Shown one piece after another: positions 33,401 through 38,053 of a stretch of DNA of 64,000 nucleotides. Position 1 is the stretch's first letter, and every line of letters begins with the position of its first letter. The position numbers and the translations under genes are program-made. The notes under the pieces were generated by a model. That model was not told the origin of the DNA, did no database searches, and saw only the letters and a program-made list of their open reading frames with translations. This stretch comes from Streptomyces durmitorensis (GTDB lineage Bacteria > Actinomycetota > Actinomycetes > Streptomycetales > Streptomycetaceae), in assembly GCF_023498005.1 (NCBI RefSeq), contig NZ_CP097289.1:6262001-6326000 (forward strand), given 5' to 3'.

Positions 33401-33690
33401 GGATCGGGCCCGTGGTGGGGACGCGGACGTGGGGCGGGGTGATCGGGATCGACAGCCGGTACCGGTTGGTGGACGGGACGCTGGTGACGCAGCCGAAGTA
33501 CGCGTTCTGGCTGGAGGGGTACGGCTGGGGCGTCGAGAACTACGGGGTCGACCCGGACGTGGAGGTGGTGACGACGCCGGAGGACTACGCGGCGGGGCGG
33601 GACCCGCAGCTGGACGAGGCGATCCGCCTGGCGCTGACGTCCCTGGAGGCTACGCCGCCGAGGAGGGCGCCAGAGTTGCCGGGGCTGTGA
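30445..33690 (+). CDS. Tricorn protease homologue
   Basis: A giant cytosolic serine peptidase that degrades oligopeptides released by the proteasome. 1081 residues from GTG 30445. The N-terminus is two beta-propellers (repeated WTPDG/SPDS blades, residues about 1-680), then a helical C1 domain (about 690-760) including ELGTSHAYVMGGG, a PDZ domain (about 770-860) and a C2 S41-like domain carrying the nucleophile Ser in NEFSGSDGDIVN. Streptomycetes are classical Tricorn bearers. It stands alone, with repeat-rich DNA behind it. Confidence 0.93.
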   Translation: MTLTGHPAYLRFPHLRGELVAFTAEDDVWVAPLDGGRAWRVSADNMPVNHPRISPDGRAVAWTSTRDGAPEVHVAPVDGGSSKRLTYWGSSRTSVRGWTPDGQVLAVSTAGQASLRRSWARAVPLDGGPAETLPYGIVGDVAHGPQDGQVLLLSAPMGREAAWWKRYRGGTAGKLWIRSGDGAGGPDEEGGEPRFVRVHEELDGNIEYPLWVGERIAFLSDHEGVGAVYSSLPDGSDLRRHTGVDGFYARHAATDGTRVVYASAGELLFLDDLLDAEPRRVDVRLGGQRTDLQPFPVTAARWFGAAAPDHTGRGSAVSVRGGVHWVTHREGPARALAAEHGVRARLPRTFRVDGEEHVVWVTDAEGDDALQFAPATGLAPGATPRRIAVGQLGRVLALAIAPDGSKAAVASHDGRVLLVERESGEVREVDRGEHGDASGLVFSPDSAWLAWSHPGPSPLRQLKLANTADLSVSEATPLRFRDYAPAFTLDGKHLAFLSARAFDPVYDEHVFDLAFVGGSRPHLITLAATTPSPFGPQRHGRPFEAPDKDETPDSEGSPVTRIDLDGLADRIVPFPVEAARYSTLRAAKDGVLWLRHPVRGVLGASRATPSDPDPQTELERYDLVQQRIEELASDADHFAVSGDGKRVLLWSDGKLKVVPSDRRASGDEKSESNITVDLTRVRQTVDPAAEWRQMYDEAGRLMRDNFWRPDLGGVDWDGVLDRYRPVLGRVATHDDLVDLLWEVAGELGTSHAYVMGGGAWGSSAVRQGLLGADVSRGADGAWRIDRILPSETSDPAARSPLAAPGVAVRAGDALLAVAGRPVDPVAGPGPLLVGTAGKPVELTVSPAGGGDPRHAVVIPVDDEEPLRYHAWVVDRRAYVHERSGGRLGYLHVPDMQAPGWAQIHRDLRVEVARDGLVVDVRENRGGHTSQLVVEKLARKIVGWDLPRGSQPYSYPADAPRGPVVAVANEFSGSDGDIVNAAIKALGIGPVVGTRTWGGVIGIDSRYRLVDGTLVTQPKYAFWLEGYGWGVENYGVDPDVEVVTTPEDYAAGRDPQLDEAIRLALTSLEATPPRRAPELPGL

Positions 33691-33748
33691 GGGCGGGGTG
33701 GGTGCGGGGCGCTTGCTGCGGGGCTGGTCCGTCTGTGGGTGCGGGGCC

Positions 33749-33990
33749 CGTGCCGGTGTGTTCGTCTTCGCCGTTGGTGGGGTGGGTGGGGGAGGCCTGC
33801 GGCGCATGCTGGGGTTGGCGGATGCGGAGTTGCCGGGTGGGGGCGTCGGGGCCGTGCCGGTGTGTTCGTCTTCGCCGTTGGTGGGGTGGGTGTGGGAGGC
33901 CTGCGGCGCATGCTGGGGTTGGGTGGGGGGTGCGGATGCGGAGTTGCCGGGTGGGGGCGTCGGGGCCGTGCCGGTATGTCCGTCCTCGCT
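33749..33990. repeat. Tandem direct repeats of about 104-114 bp downstream of Tricorn
   Basis: The block beginning CGTGCCGGTGTGTTCGTC occurs at 33749 and 33853, with a diverged third start at 33967. Between starts the copies share GCCTGCGGCGCATGCTGGGG and GCGGATGCGGAGTTGCCGGG. The 730-bp gap 33691-34420 contains no gene that I can support; open frames there follow the repeats. Confidence 0.8.
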
Positions 33991-34064
33991 ATCGTCCGGT
34001 GGCCGCGGGGCTGCTGCGCTGCTGGAGCGCAGGGAACCGTGCTCCGGGCGGACATACCGGCACG
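33967..34064. repeat. 16-bp inverted repeat with inner hairpin
   Basis: CGTGCCGGTATGTCCG (33967-33982) is the exact reverse complement of CGGACATACCGGCACG (34049-34064). Inside it CTGCGCT (34014-34020) pairs with AGCGCAG (34026-34032). The left arm overlaps the third copy of the direct repeat. Confidence 0.7.
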
Positions 34065-34420
34065 TCCCCTCGCGTGCGCTGCCGACTGCAGGTACGTGGG
34101 GTGCACCGCACCCCCGCCGACCCACCCGCGGCTGAGGGTCCCCACCCCCCGCCCCAACCGCGCGCGGCTGTACGCGTTCCCCACCCACCCTGCACCCGCT
34201 GTACGGACAACCCACCCACCCCTGTCACCGCGGGGCAATCGGGTGGGTGGGTGGGAAAACTTGTTCGTTCAGGGGTGGATGCGGGGTGATCGGGTGGGTG
34301 GGTGGGAGAGGTTCGTTCGGAGCGTCGGCGCCGCCGGGGGCTGAGGGGAGGGGCCAGGCTGGGGCGCAGCCCGGATAGCATGCGGGGGCACAGGAAAACC
34401 GCGACGACCGGAGGCGCCTC

Positions 34421-34774
34421 ATGGCGGGAGAACCGCAGGCCGACTGCCTGTTCTGCAAAATCGTCGCGGGGGACGTGCCCGCGACCCTGGTCAGGGAGAC
34501 GGACACGACCGTGGCCTTCCGGGACATCAACCCGCAGGCCCCCACCCACGTCCTGGTCATCCCCAAGGCGCACTACCCGGACGCCGCCTCCCTCGCCGCC
34601 GCCGAACCGGCCATCGCCGCCGACGTCCTCCGCGAGGCCGGCGAGGTCGCCGCCGAGGAGAAGGCGGAGAGTTATCGCGTCGTCTTCAACACCGGCTCCG
34701 GCGCGGGCCAGACCGTCTTCCACGCGCACGCCCACGTCCTCGGCGGACGCGGCCTGCAGTGGCCTCCGGGATGA
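34421..34774 (+). CDS. HIT family nucleotide hydrolase (Hint-like)
   Basis: A small histidine-triad protein hydrolysing nucleoside phosphoramidates or dinucleotides. 117 residues from ATG 34421. The N-terminal CLFCKIVAGDVPA, HVLVIPKAHYPD and the catalytic triad HAHAHVLGG near the C-terminus are all intact. Six bases separate its stop from the RNase Z start, so an operon is likely. Confidence 0.93.
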   Translation: MAGEPQADCLFCKIVAGDVPATLVRETDTTVAFRDINPQAPTHVLVIPKAHYPDAASLAAAEPAIAADVLREAGEVAAEEKAESYRVVFNTGSGAGQTVFHAHAHVLGGRGLQWPPG

Positions 34775-35702: not shown

Positions 35703-36704
35703 ATGCCCCTTCCCAAAGCCGAACTCCATCTCCACATCGAGGGGACGCTCGAACCCGAGCTGGCCTTCGCCCTCGCCGCCCGCAACGGCATCACCCTCCC
35801 GTACGCGGACACCGAAGCGCTGCGCAAGGCCTATCTCTTCGACGATCTGCAGTCCTTTCTTGACCTGTACTACGGGTTGATGGCCGTTCTGCTCACCGAG
35901 GAAGACTTCGAGGAGCTTGCCGACGCCTATCTGGCGCGGGCCGCCCAGCAGGGCGTGCGGCACGCCGAGATCTTCTTCGACCCGCAGGCGCACATGGTGC
36001 GCGGCGTCGGCATCGGCACCGTGATCGAAGGGCTCGGGCGCGCGCTGGAGCGGAGCGAGGAGCGGCACGGGATCTCGACCCGGCTCATCATGTGCTTCCT
36101 GAGGGACCAGTCCGCCGAGTCGGCCCTGGAGACCTTGGAGGCCGCCAGGCCCCATCTCCACCGGATCGTGGGCGTCGGGCTCGACTCCGCCGAGGTCGGG
36201 CATCCGCCCGCCAAGTTCCGCGAGGTGTACGAGGCGGCGGCCGCGCTCGGTCTGCGCCGCGTCGCCCACGCGGGCGAGGAGGGGCCGCCCGCGTACATCA
36301 CGGAGGCCCTGGACGTCCTGGGCGTCGAGCGCATCGACCACGGGCTGCGCTGCATGGAGGACCCGGAGCTCGTGGAGCGGCTCGTGCGGGAGCGGACGCC
36401 GCTCACGCTCTGCCCGCTCTCCAACGTGCGGCTGCGCGCCATCGACGTACTCGAGGAGCACCCCCTGGCGCGGATGATGGACGCCGGGCTGCTGTGCACG
36501 GTCAACTCCGACGACCCGGCGTACTTCGGCGGATACGTCGACGACACCTTCCACGCGGTGCGGGAGGCGCTGGGTCTCGACCAGGAGCGGCTGCGCGAGC
36601 TCGCGCGGAACTCGTTCGAGGCGTCCTTCCTCGACGGGAGCCCCGAGGACGAGGCGCTTCGGGCGCGGTACATCGCCGAGGTCGCGGAATATTCGTTCGA
36701 CTGA
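35703..36704 (+). CDS. Adenosine deaminase superfamily enzyme, adenine-deaminase-like
   Basis: A TIM-barrel zinc hydrolase of purine deamination. Metal and catalytic residues are visible: AELHLHIEGTL (HxH), AHAGEEGPPAY (His and catalytic Glu), ERIDHGLR, and NSDDPAYFGGY (catalytic Asp). Phrases such as FFDPQAHMVRG, GLDSAEVGHPPAKF and NSDDPAYFGGYV match, from memory, the adenine deaminases of Pseudomonas and fungi better than classical adenosine deaminase. 6-aminodeoxyfutalosine deaminase of the futalosine menaquinone route is another relative found in actinobacteria. 333 residues. Substrate is therefore open. The glycosyltransferase leader begins 28 bases after its stop. Confidence 0.85.
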   Translation: MPLPKAELHLHIEGTLEPELAFALAARNGITLPYADTEALRKAYLFDDLQSFLDLYYGLMAVLLTEEDFEELADAYLARAAQQGVRHAEIFFDPQAHMVRGVGIGTVIEGLGRALERSEERHGISTRLIMCFLRDQSAESALETLEAARPHLHRIVGVGLDSAEVGHPPAKFREVYEAAAALGLRRVAHAGEEGPPAYITEALDVLGVERIDHGLRCMEDPELVERLVRERTPLTLCPLSNVRLRAIDVLEEHPLARMMDAGLLCTVNSDDPAYFGGYVDDTFHAVREALGLDQERLRELARNSFEASFLDGSPEDEALRARYIAEVAEYSFD

Positions 36705-36725
36705 TCGTCGGGGGCGGGCTACGGT
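36697..36725 (+). promoter_or_regulatory. Putative promoter for the upstream ORF and glycosyltransferase
   Basis: TACGGT (36720-36725) has the TANNNT form of a -10 element and would place +1 at or next to the A of the uORF ATG (36732), making that ORF leaderless. TCGACT (36697-36702) or TTCGAC (36696-36701) at 17-18 bp resembles a -35 element. An AT-rich patch (AATATT, 36689-36694) lies just upstream, the arrangement described for WblC/WhiB7-dependent promoters of antibiotic-response genes. Confidence 0.45.
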
Positions 36726-36731
36726 CCGCCC

Positions 36732-36761
36732 ATGGACTCCTTCATTCAGCTCTACGGCTGA
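36732..36761 (+). CDS. Nine-residue upstream ORF (candidate leader peptide) MDSFIQLYG
   Basis: ATG GAC TCC TTC ATT CAG CTC TAC GGC TGA. It is too short for normal gene finding. Three facts argue it is real: a -10-like hexamer at the right distance for a leaderless mRNA, its position before an antibiotic-inactivation-type gene, and the complementarity of codons 3 to 9 to the sequence just before and including the glycosyltransferase ribosome binding site. The peptide itself has no match that I know among erm leader peptides. It would be the sensor of a ribosome-stalling switch. Confidence 0.65.
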   Translation: MDSFIQLYG

Positions 36762-36853
36762 CACCGACCTGACAGGCCCGCGCGCCCCGCTGATCAGCGG
36801 CAGGCGCCGGGCCGTCGTGTCCTCGTCCGTAGAAAGCTGAATCACGCGAAGGA
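36738..36853 (+). promoter_or_regulatory. Candidate translational attenuator of the glycosyltransferase
   Basis: The uORF segment 36738-36757 is complementary to 36827-36853 in three blocks. TCCTTC (36738-36743) pairs with GAAGGA (36848-36853), the Shine-Dalgarno. ATTCAGCT (36744-36751) pairs with AGCTGAAT (36835-36842). CTACGG (36752-36757) pairs with CCGTAG (36827-36832). That gives 20 bp with bulges only on the 3' side. Between the arms, 36775-36813 folds into its own strong hairpin (GGCCCG/CGGGCC, GCGCC/GGCGC and palindrome CCGCTGATCAGCGG). A ribosome stalled in the uORF would free the Shine-Dalgarno. The inner hairpin might alternatively act as a transcription terminator. Confidence 0.7.
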
Positions 36854-36862
36854 ATCTCATCC

Positions 36863-38053
36863 ATGAATCGTCGAACGCCCCGTCGCCGTGCCCACATCGC
36901 CATGGTCGGTGTCCCGATGGTCAGCCATGTGCTGCCCAGCCTGGAGATCATCCGCGAACTGGTGGCGCGCGGGCACCGGGTGACGTACGCGAACGACCCG
37001 GCGACCCGCGAGCTGATCGAGCCCACCGGCGCCGAACTCGTCCCCTGCACCTCGCGGTTGCCCTTCAAGGACAACATCTGGCCGGAGGACCCGATCGCCG
37101 CGAGCGCTCTCTTCCTCGACGACGCGATGGCGGTGCTTCCGCAATTGCGCTCGTTCTACGGCGACGACCCCGCCGATCTGTATCTGTACGACATCGGCGC
37201 GTACGTCGCCCGTGCGCTGGCCGAGGAGCAGGGGCGTCCTTTCATGCAGCTGTCGCCCACCTTCGTGGCCTGGGAGGGCTATCAGGAGGAGGTCGGGGCG
37301 CACCTTCAGCAGCTGCCCGGGGCCGCCGAGCTTGAGGCGCGGTTCGGGGAGTGGCTCGCGGGGACCGGGGCCACGACCCTGGACGTCAGCGCCTTCTCGG
37401 GGACCCCCGACCGCGCCGTCGCGATGATCCCCCGGGCCATGCAGATCTCCGCCGACCGGGTCGATCCGAAGCGGGTCGACTTCGTGGGGCCCTGCTTCGG
37501 GGACCGGTCGGCGCAGGGGAGTTGGCAGCGGCCCGAGGGTGCCGAGAAGGTGCTGCTGGTGTCGCTGGGCTCCTCGTACACCCAGCAGCCCGCGTTCTAC
37601 CGCACCTGCGTGGCCGCGTTCGGCGGGCTCGCGGGGTGGCACGTGGTGCTGCAGATCGGCAAGCACGTGGATCCCGCGGAGCTCGGTGAGGTGCCGGGGA
37701 ACGTGGAAGTGCGCTCGTGGGTACCCCAGTTGGCGATCCTGGAGCAGGCCGACGCGTTCGTCACGCACGCGGGCATGGGCAGCAGCAGTGAAGGCCTCTT
37801 CACCGGTGTGCCGATGATCGCGGTGCCCCAGGGGGCCGAGCAGCCGATGAACGCGGACCGGCTCGTGGAGCTGGGGGTGGCCCGGCGGATCGACACCGCC
37901 GACGCGACCGCCGACACGCTGCGTTCCGCTCTCCTGGAGCTGACGTCCGATCCCGACGTCGCGGCTCGGGCCGCGCGCCTCAAGGCCGAGGCGCGCGCCG
38001 AGGGCGGCACGGCTCGGGCGGCCGATCTCATGGAGGCGGAGCTCGGGGGCTAG
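36863..38053 (+). CDS. Macrolide-type glycosyltransferase (GT1, MGT/OleD family)
   Basis: Transfers a sugar from a UDP-sugar to a hydrophobic acceptor; family members such as OleD and Mgt inactivate macrolides by glucosylation. 396 residues, GT-B fold. The N-terminal acceptor domain starts with HIAMVGVPMVSHVLPSLEII. The C-terminal donor domain has VSLGSSYTQQPAFYR and the GT1 signature WVPQLAILEQADAFVTHAG ... PQGAEQPMNADRL (His-Ala-Gly and Gln contacts to the UDP-sugar). ATG 36863 has GAAGGA at 36848-36853, which is sequestered by the leader described above. No antibiotic biosynthesis genes are nearby, so self-protection is less likely than general resistance. Confidence 0.9.
   Translation: MNRRTPRRRAHIAMVGVPMVSHVLPSLEIIRELVARGHRVTYANDPATRELIEPTGAELVPCTSRLPFKDNIWPEDPIAASALFLDDAMAVLPQLRSFYGDDPADLYLYDIGAYVARALAEEQGRPFMQLSPTFVAWEGYQEEVGAHLQQLPGAAELEARFGEWLAGTGATTLDVSAFSGTPDRAVAMIPRAMQISADRVDPKRVDFVGPCFGDRSAQGSWQRPEGAEKVLLVSLGSSYTQQPAFYRTCVAAFGGLAGWHVVLQIGKHVDPAELGEVPGNVEVRSWVPQLAILEQADAFVTHAGMGSSSEGLFTGVPMIAVPQGAEQPMNADRLVELGVARRIDTADATADTLRSALLELTSDPDVAARAARLKAEARAEGGTARAADLMEAELGG

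Follow-up and report, generated by a model that had tools for sequence, protein, structure and literature searches.

At erm genes, a ribosome stalled in the leader opens a sequestered ribosome binding site. Two genes of S. lividans for inducible lincomycin and macrolide resistance were reportedly described by Jenkins and Cundliffe in 1991. Erythromycin acts on the leader MsrDL (MYLIFM) by arresting the ribosome at termination, once six residues have been joined (PMC10314930). On the upstream ORFs (uORFs) of the Streptomyces genes are5sc and tiaA, erythromycin caused no stalling (PMC12421871). The initial annotation of the locus studied here knew of no leader peptide described for an MGT-family glycosyltransferase gene, and none was found, for MGT or for DUF6243, among the literature matches listed, most subscription papers being outside that scope.

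The window analysed is a stretch of 64,000 nucleotides of the Streptomyces durmitorensis genome (NZ_CP097289.1, positions 6,262,001 to 6,326,000), and the parts of the leader and of the gene described below lie on its plus strand. An MGT-family (macrolide-inactivating type) glycosyltransferase of 396 aa is encoded at 36863-38053, between adenosine deaminase and sugar-kinase-like genes. This label, already given by the initial annotation, is borne out by the family model TIGR01426 (393 bits, passing the cut-off of 260), whereas the score for NF033129 (macrolide-inactivating Mgt), 496 bits, is below that model's own cut-off of 700. Among solved structures, Kcn28 and oleandomycin glycosyltransferase match best. 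Upstream of the gene, the uORF MDSFIQLYG with its TGA stop (ATGGACTCCTTCATTCAGCTCTACGGCTGA) occupies 36732-36761. Its codons 3-9 form a 5' arm (36738-36757) made of three contiguous blocks, TCCTTC, ATTCAGCT and CTACGG, whose 20 bases are predicted to pair with GAAGGA, AGCTGAAT and CCGTAG in a 3' arm at 36827-36853. The 3' arm reads CCGTAG-AA-AGCTGAAT-CACGC-GAAGGA (CCGTAG at 36827-36832, AGCTGAAT at 36835-36842, GAAGGA at 36848-36853), and the bulges, of 2 and 5 nt, are on the 3' side only. GAAGGA is the probable ribosome binding site of the glycosyltransferase gene; it is paired to uORF codons 3-4, the putative anti-Shine-Dalgarno being 36738-36743. A separate GC-rich hairpin is predicted between the arms, at about 36766-36819. 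The uORF and the pairing with its one-sided bulges agree to the base with what the initial annotation had proposed, and the independent hairpin and the covered ribosome binding site that it had described both reappear in the predicted fold. Elsewhere in the window, a translated GC-rich stretch at 33700-34200 has recurring residues (for example RMRSCRVGASGPCR); Tandem Repeats Finder reported no array in 33500-34500.

The predicted fold of the 181-nt leader reaches -90.7 kcal/mol; its dinucleotide shuffles give -67.1 +/- 4.5 (z -5.2), and none of 200 folds as well. The duplex between the uORF and the 3' region reaches -29.9, compared with -14.4 +/- 3.1 for dinucleotide shuffles, of which 0 of 5000 equal it. 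Every one of the 20 bases has a modelled pairing probability of 0.94-1.00, and for GAAGGA the probability of being unpaired is 0.008. When the uORF is masked in the model this value rises to 0.18, and the cost of opening GAAGGA falls from 9.7 to 7.3 kcal/mol. Because the modelled pairing is strong, yet the gain in accessibility on masking is modest, prediction gives good support to the closed state, in which the ribosome site would be hidden, and partial support to the open state after occupancy of the uORF. Rfam covariance models gave 0 matches with E <= 1 in 36000-38000.

The same fold bears on the possibility of transcription attenuation, in which the folded leader would terminate transcription and a stalled ribosome would prevent the terminator from forming, as in msrD, lmrC and are5sc. 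The gene msrD is under such control (PMC10314930), which is also frequent for ABC-F resistance genes, those of Streptomyces included (PMC12421871), and the strong GC-rich central hairpin of the leader could be read in the same way. However, no terminator-like site was found by a U-run-based scan of 36600-36960, there is no U-run where the long stem ends, at the ribosome binding site, and the central hairpin would stay intact under stalling. We therefore regard transcription attenuation as unlikely.

Both the uORF and its pairing, whose absence from orthologous loci the initial annotation had named as counter-evidence, are conserved ahead of MGT genes in eight genera, Streptomyces being one of them. 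A search of 392 genomes of the same genus, its own included, gave MGT matches with E <= 1e-60 in 326, and 90 MGT loci were examined, 30 of them returned by the same-genus search and 60 fetched further. Within 400 nt upstream of the MGT gene, 59 of the 90 loci have a short ORF ending in [ILFVM]YG-TGA, and a 60th leader, MAYREIY-TGA at locus L049, was found on inspection. A filter-free scan of the same regions, which accepted 5-12 codons starting 6 or 7 nt past TANNNT with any stop and any C-terminus, returned 60 ORFs. Without exception their peptides close with [ILF]Y or [ILF]YG, and their stop is TGA.

No leader was found at the other 30 of the 90 MGT loci. Thirteen of them form a lower-identity clade (L078-L090; 0/13 with a leader in the 400 nt upstream), 11 are located behind a Vat-like acetyltransferase gene and, among those listed, three (L026, L039, L073) follow an ABC-F gene and a fourth, L033, follows genes of both kinds; the remaining two are L070, classed as other, and L074, masked by N. 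A leader ahead of the Vat-like gene was considered for the 11 loci, where search and alignment reported no leaderless uORF with 25 codons or fewer. By eye, 10 of the 13 clade members (L078-L083, L085-L087, L090) retain before the start codon a CCGTAGACCTCTATCCAAGGAAG- or CCGTAGACCTCTATCCAAGGAAGTCC-like stretch resembling the 3' arm. The uORF-less copies directly behind Vat-like and/or ABC-F genes (L021, L022, L023, L026, L027, L029, L032, L033, L034, L039, L043, L052, L057, L069 and L073) are arranged as in multi-resistance operons, and most of them retain a GAAACGAGTGATC-like ribosome site without the 5' arm.

An independent 20-nt pattern, CAGMTCTACGGCTGACNCGG, which holds no promoter, start codon or MGT sequence, was run on a genome collection of 84,980 species. 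It gave 60 matches, 58 with an in-frame start codon and a -10 box, and in 54 of the 60 an MGT gene also lies directly downstream. Pattern-matched leaders occur in Streptomyces, Kitasatospora, Frankia, Parafrankia, Pseudofrankia, Micromonospora, Sphaerimonospora and Actinopolymorpha. Three matches (L189, L192, L193) run into the edge of the sequence fetched for them, and one (L183) is unrelated coding sequence. Two loci have the appearance of leader relics: MRFLQIYG before an MGT remnant (L184), and MDSIAQLYG without a -10 box, with no MGT found downstream (L165).

The model R1, which spans the region from the -10 box to 8 nt past the stop, was trained on the 59 first-set leaders. Within the genus it gave 58 strong matches (E <= 2.5e-7), every one within 400 nt of an MGT gene; these apparently are the training members, so that the informative part is the lack of strong matches elsewhere. 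In 394 class-level genomes R1 found nine new QIYG leaders, all before an MGT gene (tblastn) and seven of them in one other family. The training leaders of R1, and of the model R2 used below, come partly from the searched genomes; matches in those genomes are thus obtained by construction, and the information lies in the absence of strong matches elsewhere and in the new genomes. The 121 leader records comprise the 59 of the first set, L049, 52 of the 54 pattern leaders and the 9 class-level ones (one species may recur), and 90 remained after near-identical leaders (ratio > 0.93) had been dropped. Alignment A2 contains 85 of these 90 (without L072, L121, L125, L150 and L167) and served for viewing only.

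In all 59 first-set leaders a TANNNT hexamer ends 6 nt (21 leaders) or 7 nt (38 leaders) before the uORF start. WblC-activated promoters of S. coelicolor carry GAAAWY 3 bp ahead of the -35, a 16-19 bp spacer and TANNNT, and most WblC-target transcripts begin 7 or 8 bp past the -10 (PMC7157823). A start at this distance would coincide with the first codon of the uORF, which is therefore probably leaderless, being read from the first base of the transcript or within about a base of it. In the window, the -10 box TACGGT (36720-36725) lies 6 nt ahead of the start codon, a spacing from which transcription is predicted to start at about 36732. The -35-like hexamer TTCGAC (36696-36701) is located 18 nt ahead of the -10, and a weak WblC/WhiB7-type box, GAATAT (36687-36692; 5 of 6 positions of the consensus), 3 nt ahead of the -35, both inside the 3' end of the adenosine deaminase gene. 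A generic sigma-70 scan of 36600-36960 with an E. coli-type consensus found no promoter-like site and missed this -35. A combined score of at least 6.5 for WblC box and -35 is reached by 34 of the 59 first-set leaders, against 0.24% of 11,800 mononucleotide shuffles; the promoter of the window (GAATAT-TCG-TTCGAC-18 nt-TACGGT) scores 6.0, below this cut-off. We infer WblC control of the leader from these boxes.

The C-terminus of the peptide is nearly fixed. Among the 90 non-redundant leaders it is QIYG in 69 and QLYG in 17, with QFYG, PIYG, EIYG and REIY found once each. The stop is TGA in 90/90, a count that is partly by construction, because TGA and YG are demanded or favoured by the ORF filter, the 20-nt pattern and the models; the filter-free scan serves as the check. 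Start codons are ATG in 84 leaders and GTG in 6. The tyrosine is residue 7 in 50 leaders, 8 in 36, 6 in 2 and 9 in 2, and thus at 7 or 8 in 86/90. Residues upstream of the conserved end are variable, with F, L, S, H, N and Y frequent. Third codon positions were left free in the search of the first set, where the codons are TAC for tyrosine (59/59), GGC for glycine (59/59) and CTC for leucine (14/14). A nascent chain of such length can reach a macrolide in the tunnel, as in erm leaders. None of the macrolide arrest motifs known to us (+X+, IFVI) occurs in the uORF peptide.

Ten of the 11 core positions between the 3' arm, CCGTAGAnCTGAA in the relatives, and the coding arm are paired in 70 to 89 of the 90 leaders, counts that are biased upward because the 3' arm was located by its best match to the consensus CCGTAGAnCTGAA, the lowest-scoring placements (6-8 of 12) being possibly wrong. 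The eleventh position, the first base of the Ile/Leu codon, is paired in 24/90. The initial annotation had expected conservation of the peptide together with compensatory changes in the stems. The peptide is indeed conserved, whereas no compensatory covariation was seen in the core stem among the 90 leaders, because the coding arm is invariant; almost every change falls on the 3' side. Own pairs of uORF and 3' region bind better than swapped ones, both over the whole arm (-20.8 versus -19.2 kcal/mol) and between the N-terminal codons and the ribosome-site region (-6.4 versus -5.4), with 0 of 2000 permutations in each case when relatedness is ignored. When leaders are compared one by one with shuffled 3' regions, 25 of 59 are significant at p <= 0.01, the other 34 falling short of it. 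Masking the uORF increases the modelled accessibility of the ribosome site in 53/59 leaders, from a mean of 0.34 to 0.47; the gain exceeds 0.2 in 13/59 only and is nil in 6/59.

A sister leader was found before an unrelated gene. The second-tier matches of R1 (E 8e-6 and worse) were considered as chance matches to coding sequence, a view rejected for most of those fetched: of 40 loci taken from the matches listed, best first and then some weaker groups, 26 have QIYE or PIYE leaders, and 14 have no leaderless uORF and resemble coding matches. The uORFs (for example MSSFFQIYE, MYSFFQIYE, MFFQIYE and MYSFLPIYE, with a TGA stop) precede a small protein beginning MAKSRNNLLGVGGQRKKLSRADQ, which is Pfam DUF6243. 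At L205 a leader of this type stands before DUF6243 sequence in which no intact gene frame was found. L133 has one more QIYE-type leader; at L132, which belongs to another family, the uORF MYFRQIYE precedes an MGT gene. When the best of four spacings is taken, the WblC box of the 28 QIYE-type uORFs agrees at 6/6 positions in 19, at 5/6 in 8 and at 4/6 in 1, the scoring of the -35 being slightly looser here than for the first-set MGT leaders. Twenty-six of the 28 were modelled, without L132 (MGT downstream) and L223 (no start found). In these 26 the DUF6243 ribosome-site window is predicted to pair with the uORF and the next 12 nt with a mean probability of 0.68, and its unpaired fraction rises from 0.19 to 0.36 when the uORF is masked; in three of them (L207, L214, L215) the ribosome site hardly pairs with the uORF.

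The genome of S. durmitorensis itself has two DUF6243 copies. One is preceded by a variant leader, MFFQTLIYE-TGA, at about G000:C1:9580067, which is the second-best match of R2 behind the MGT leader; for the other copy, the R2 search reported no leader. In 101 genomes the best 42 matches of R2 (E <= 7e-8) comprise 27 before DUF6243 and 15 before MGT, with no third gene family among them, and down to rank 65 (E up to 7e-5) the counts are 37 DUF6243, 15 MGT and 13 neither. Of the R2 matches to model positions 18/19-81, the one inspected (L238) looked like uvrA-type coding sequence. Two unrelated genes share the promoter layout and the IY[G/E]-stop while their anti-Shine-Dalgarno codons differ, which argues that the end of the peptide is selected, and not the stem alone.

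This sharing also weighs on a purely transcriptional reading, in which the uORF would be a constitutive damper (leaderless ribosome loading plus a structured leader) under WblC, with induction acting on transcription only. WblC-type boxes are common ahead of the leaders, and WblC is an activator of many genes directed against antibiotics that target translation (PMC7157823), but neither the near-fixed Q[I/L]YG-TGA nor the near-reuse of QIYE-TGA before an unrelated gene would be explained, and we find a constitutive damper quite improbable. That RNA pairing alone matters, the short ORF being a by-product of a conserved stem, is very improbable: the frozen third codon positions (TAC, GGC, CTC) are what pairing would require, but the 3' arm varies against a constant coding arm (A-C mismatches at the Tyr codon in 16/90 leaders), the pattern matches almost always come with a start codon in frame at the correct distance from the -10, and QIY is retained before DUF6243 despite a different pairing (GTTCTTCC opposite GGGAGAAC in the folds of L198 and L206).

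Ribosome-mediated translation attenuation of the erm kind, acting via a leaderless arrest peptide, is in our judgement the probable explanation and the best of those considered. A WblC-type promoter would start the message at the uORF start codon or within about one base of it. With no drug present, ribosomes would complete the 7-10 codon uORF and depart, and the uORF codons would then pair ahead of mgt and mask its ribosome binding site. An antibiotic binding in the tunnel or at the PTC, most likely one of the macrolides, on which the enzyme is expected to act, would halt the ribosome near the conserved Ile/Leu-Tyr-Gly-stop. The halted ribosome would occupy the entire 5' arm, leaving the 3' arm free, and mgt would be translated. 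The sister QIYE-stop leaders may act in the same way on the small-protein gene DUF6243. Four features go beyond the initial annotation: a start that is probably leaderless, a promoter of WblC type in many relatives, the conserved peptide end Q[I/L]YG-stop, and the sister leader ahead of DUF6243. A broader proposition is that actinobacteria use IY[G/E]-stop as a dedicated, leaderless arrest peptide for sensing macrolides, whose codons double as anti-Shine-Dalgarno and which runs a response of both MGT and DUF6243; we give it about an even chance of being right.

If correct, this mechanism would be a dedicated switch for the macrolide glycosyltransferases of Streptomyces and its relatives, and the few drug-sensing peptides known so far would gain a new arrest sequence. 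It would also place a drug-sensing arrest peptide on a leaderless message, with ribosomes starting at the 5' end. For DUF6243, a gene family of unknown function, the likeness in peptide ends offers a functional lead, and DUF6243 would become a new antibiotic-response factor if the IY[G/E]-stop reading is true. Arrest is readily testable, because the peptide has 7-10 codons and its end is nearly fixed.

Other leaderless-type uORFs were sighted in the same genome, outside the window. MSTPRIS-stop (L242, G000:C1:4984228), with a full WblC-type box GAAATC, lies 59 nt ahead of a gene for an ATP-binding-cassette protein that by eye is like an antibiotic-resistance ABC-F. Two more, MKRAAMTTTPESVPAR at L241 (G000:C1:2614928), with a run of Thr followed by what appears by eye to be a GC-rich inverted repeat, and MNVTGPHTTATARATSSPVAAA at L243 (G000:C1:9293726), have WblC-type boxes and precede genes that by eye resemble extra threonyl- and alanyl-tRNA synthetases. 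These two uORFs look like codon-supply attenuators.

Among known systems, the leaderless cysteine uORF attenuators of mycobacteria are alike in being leaderless small ORFs thought to control downstream actinobacterial genes (PMC9031893, PMC4633059). As described there, they respond to cysteine supply through Cys codons, whereas the MGT and DUF6243 leaders have no such codon run, and the gene downstream is here an antibiotic-inactivation gene or DUF6243. The uORFs of are5sc and tiaA in Streptomyces (and also those of lmrC and wblC) share the control of antibiotic-response genes by a uORF; are5sc (MLV) and tiaA (MVGDDDISG) differ from the MGT leader in having other peptides, ribosome binding sites and predicted terminators (PMC12421871). 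MsrDL is likewise a very short hydrophobic leader, with an arrest that is known there and would be expected here. It has its own ribosome binding site and a UAA stop and controls a terminator, unlike the MGT leader, and we claim no sequence relation between the two. With attenuation of the erm type (ErmCL, ErmBL, ErmDL) this leader shares a short upstream peptide and, by prediction, a hidden ribosome binding site of a macrolide-resistance-type gene, which a stalled ribosome would open here as it does there. It differs from erm leaders in that the uORF codons themselves would be the anti-Shine-Dalgarno strand, that the uORF is predicted to be leaderless, that the peptide ends in IY[G/E]-stop, and that the controlled gene is a glycosyltransferase or DUF6243 and not a methyltransferase.
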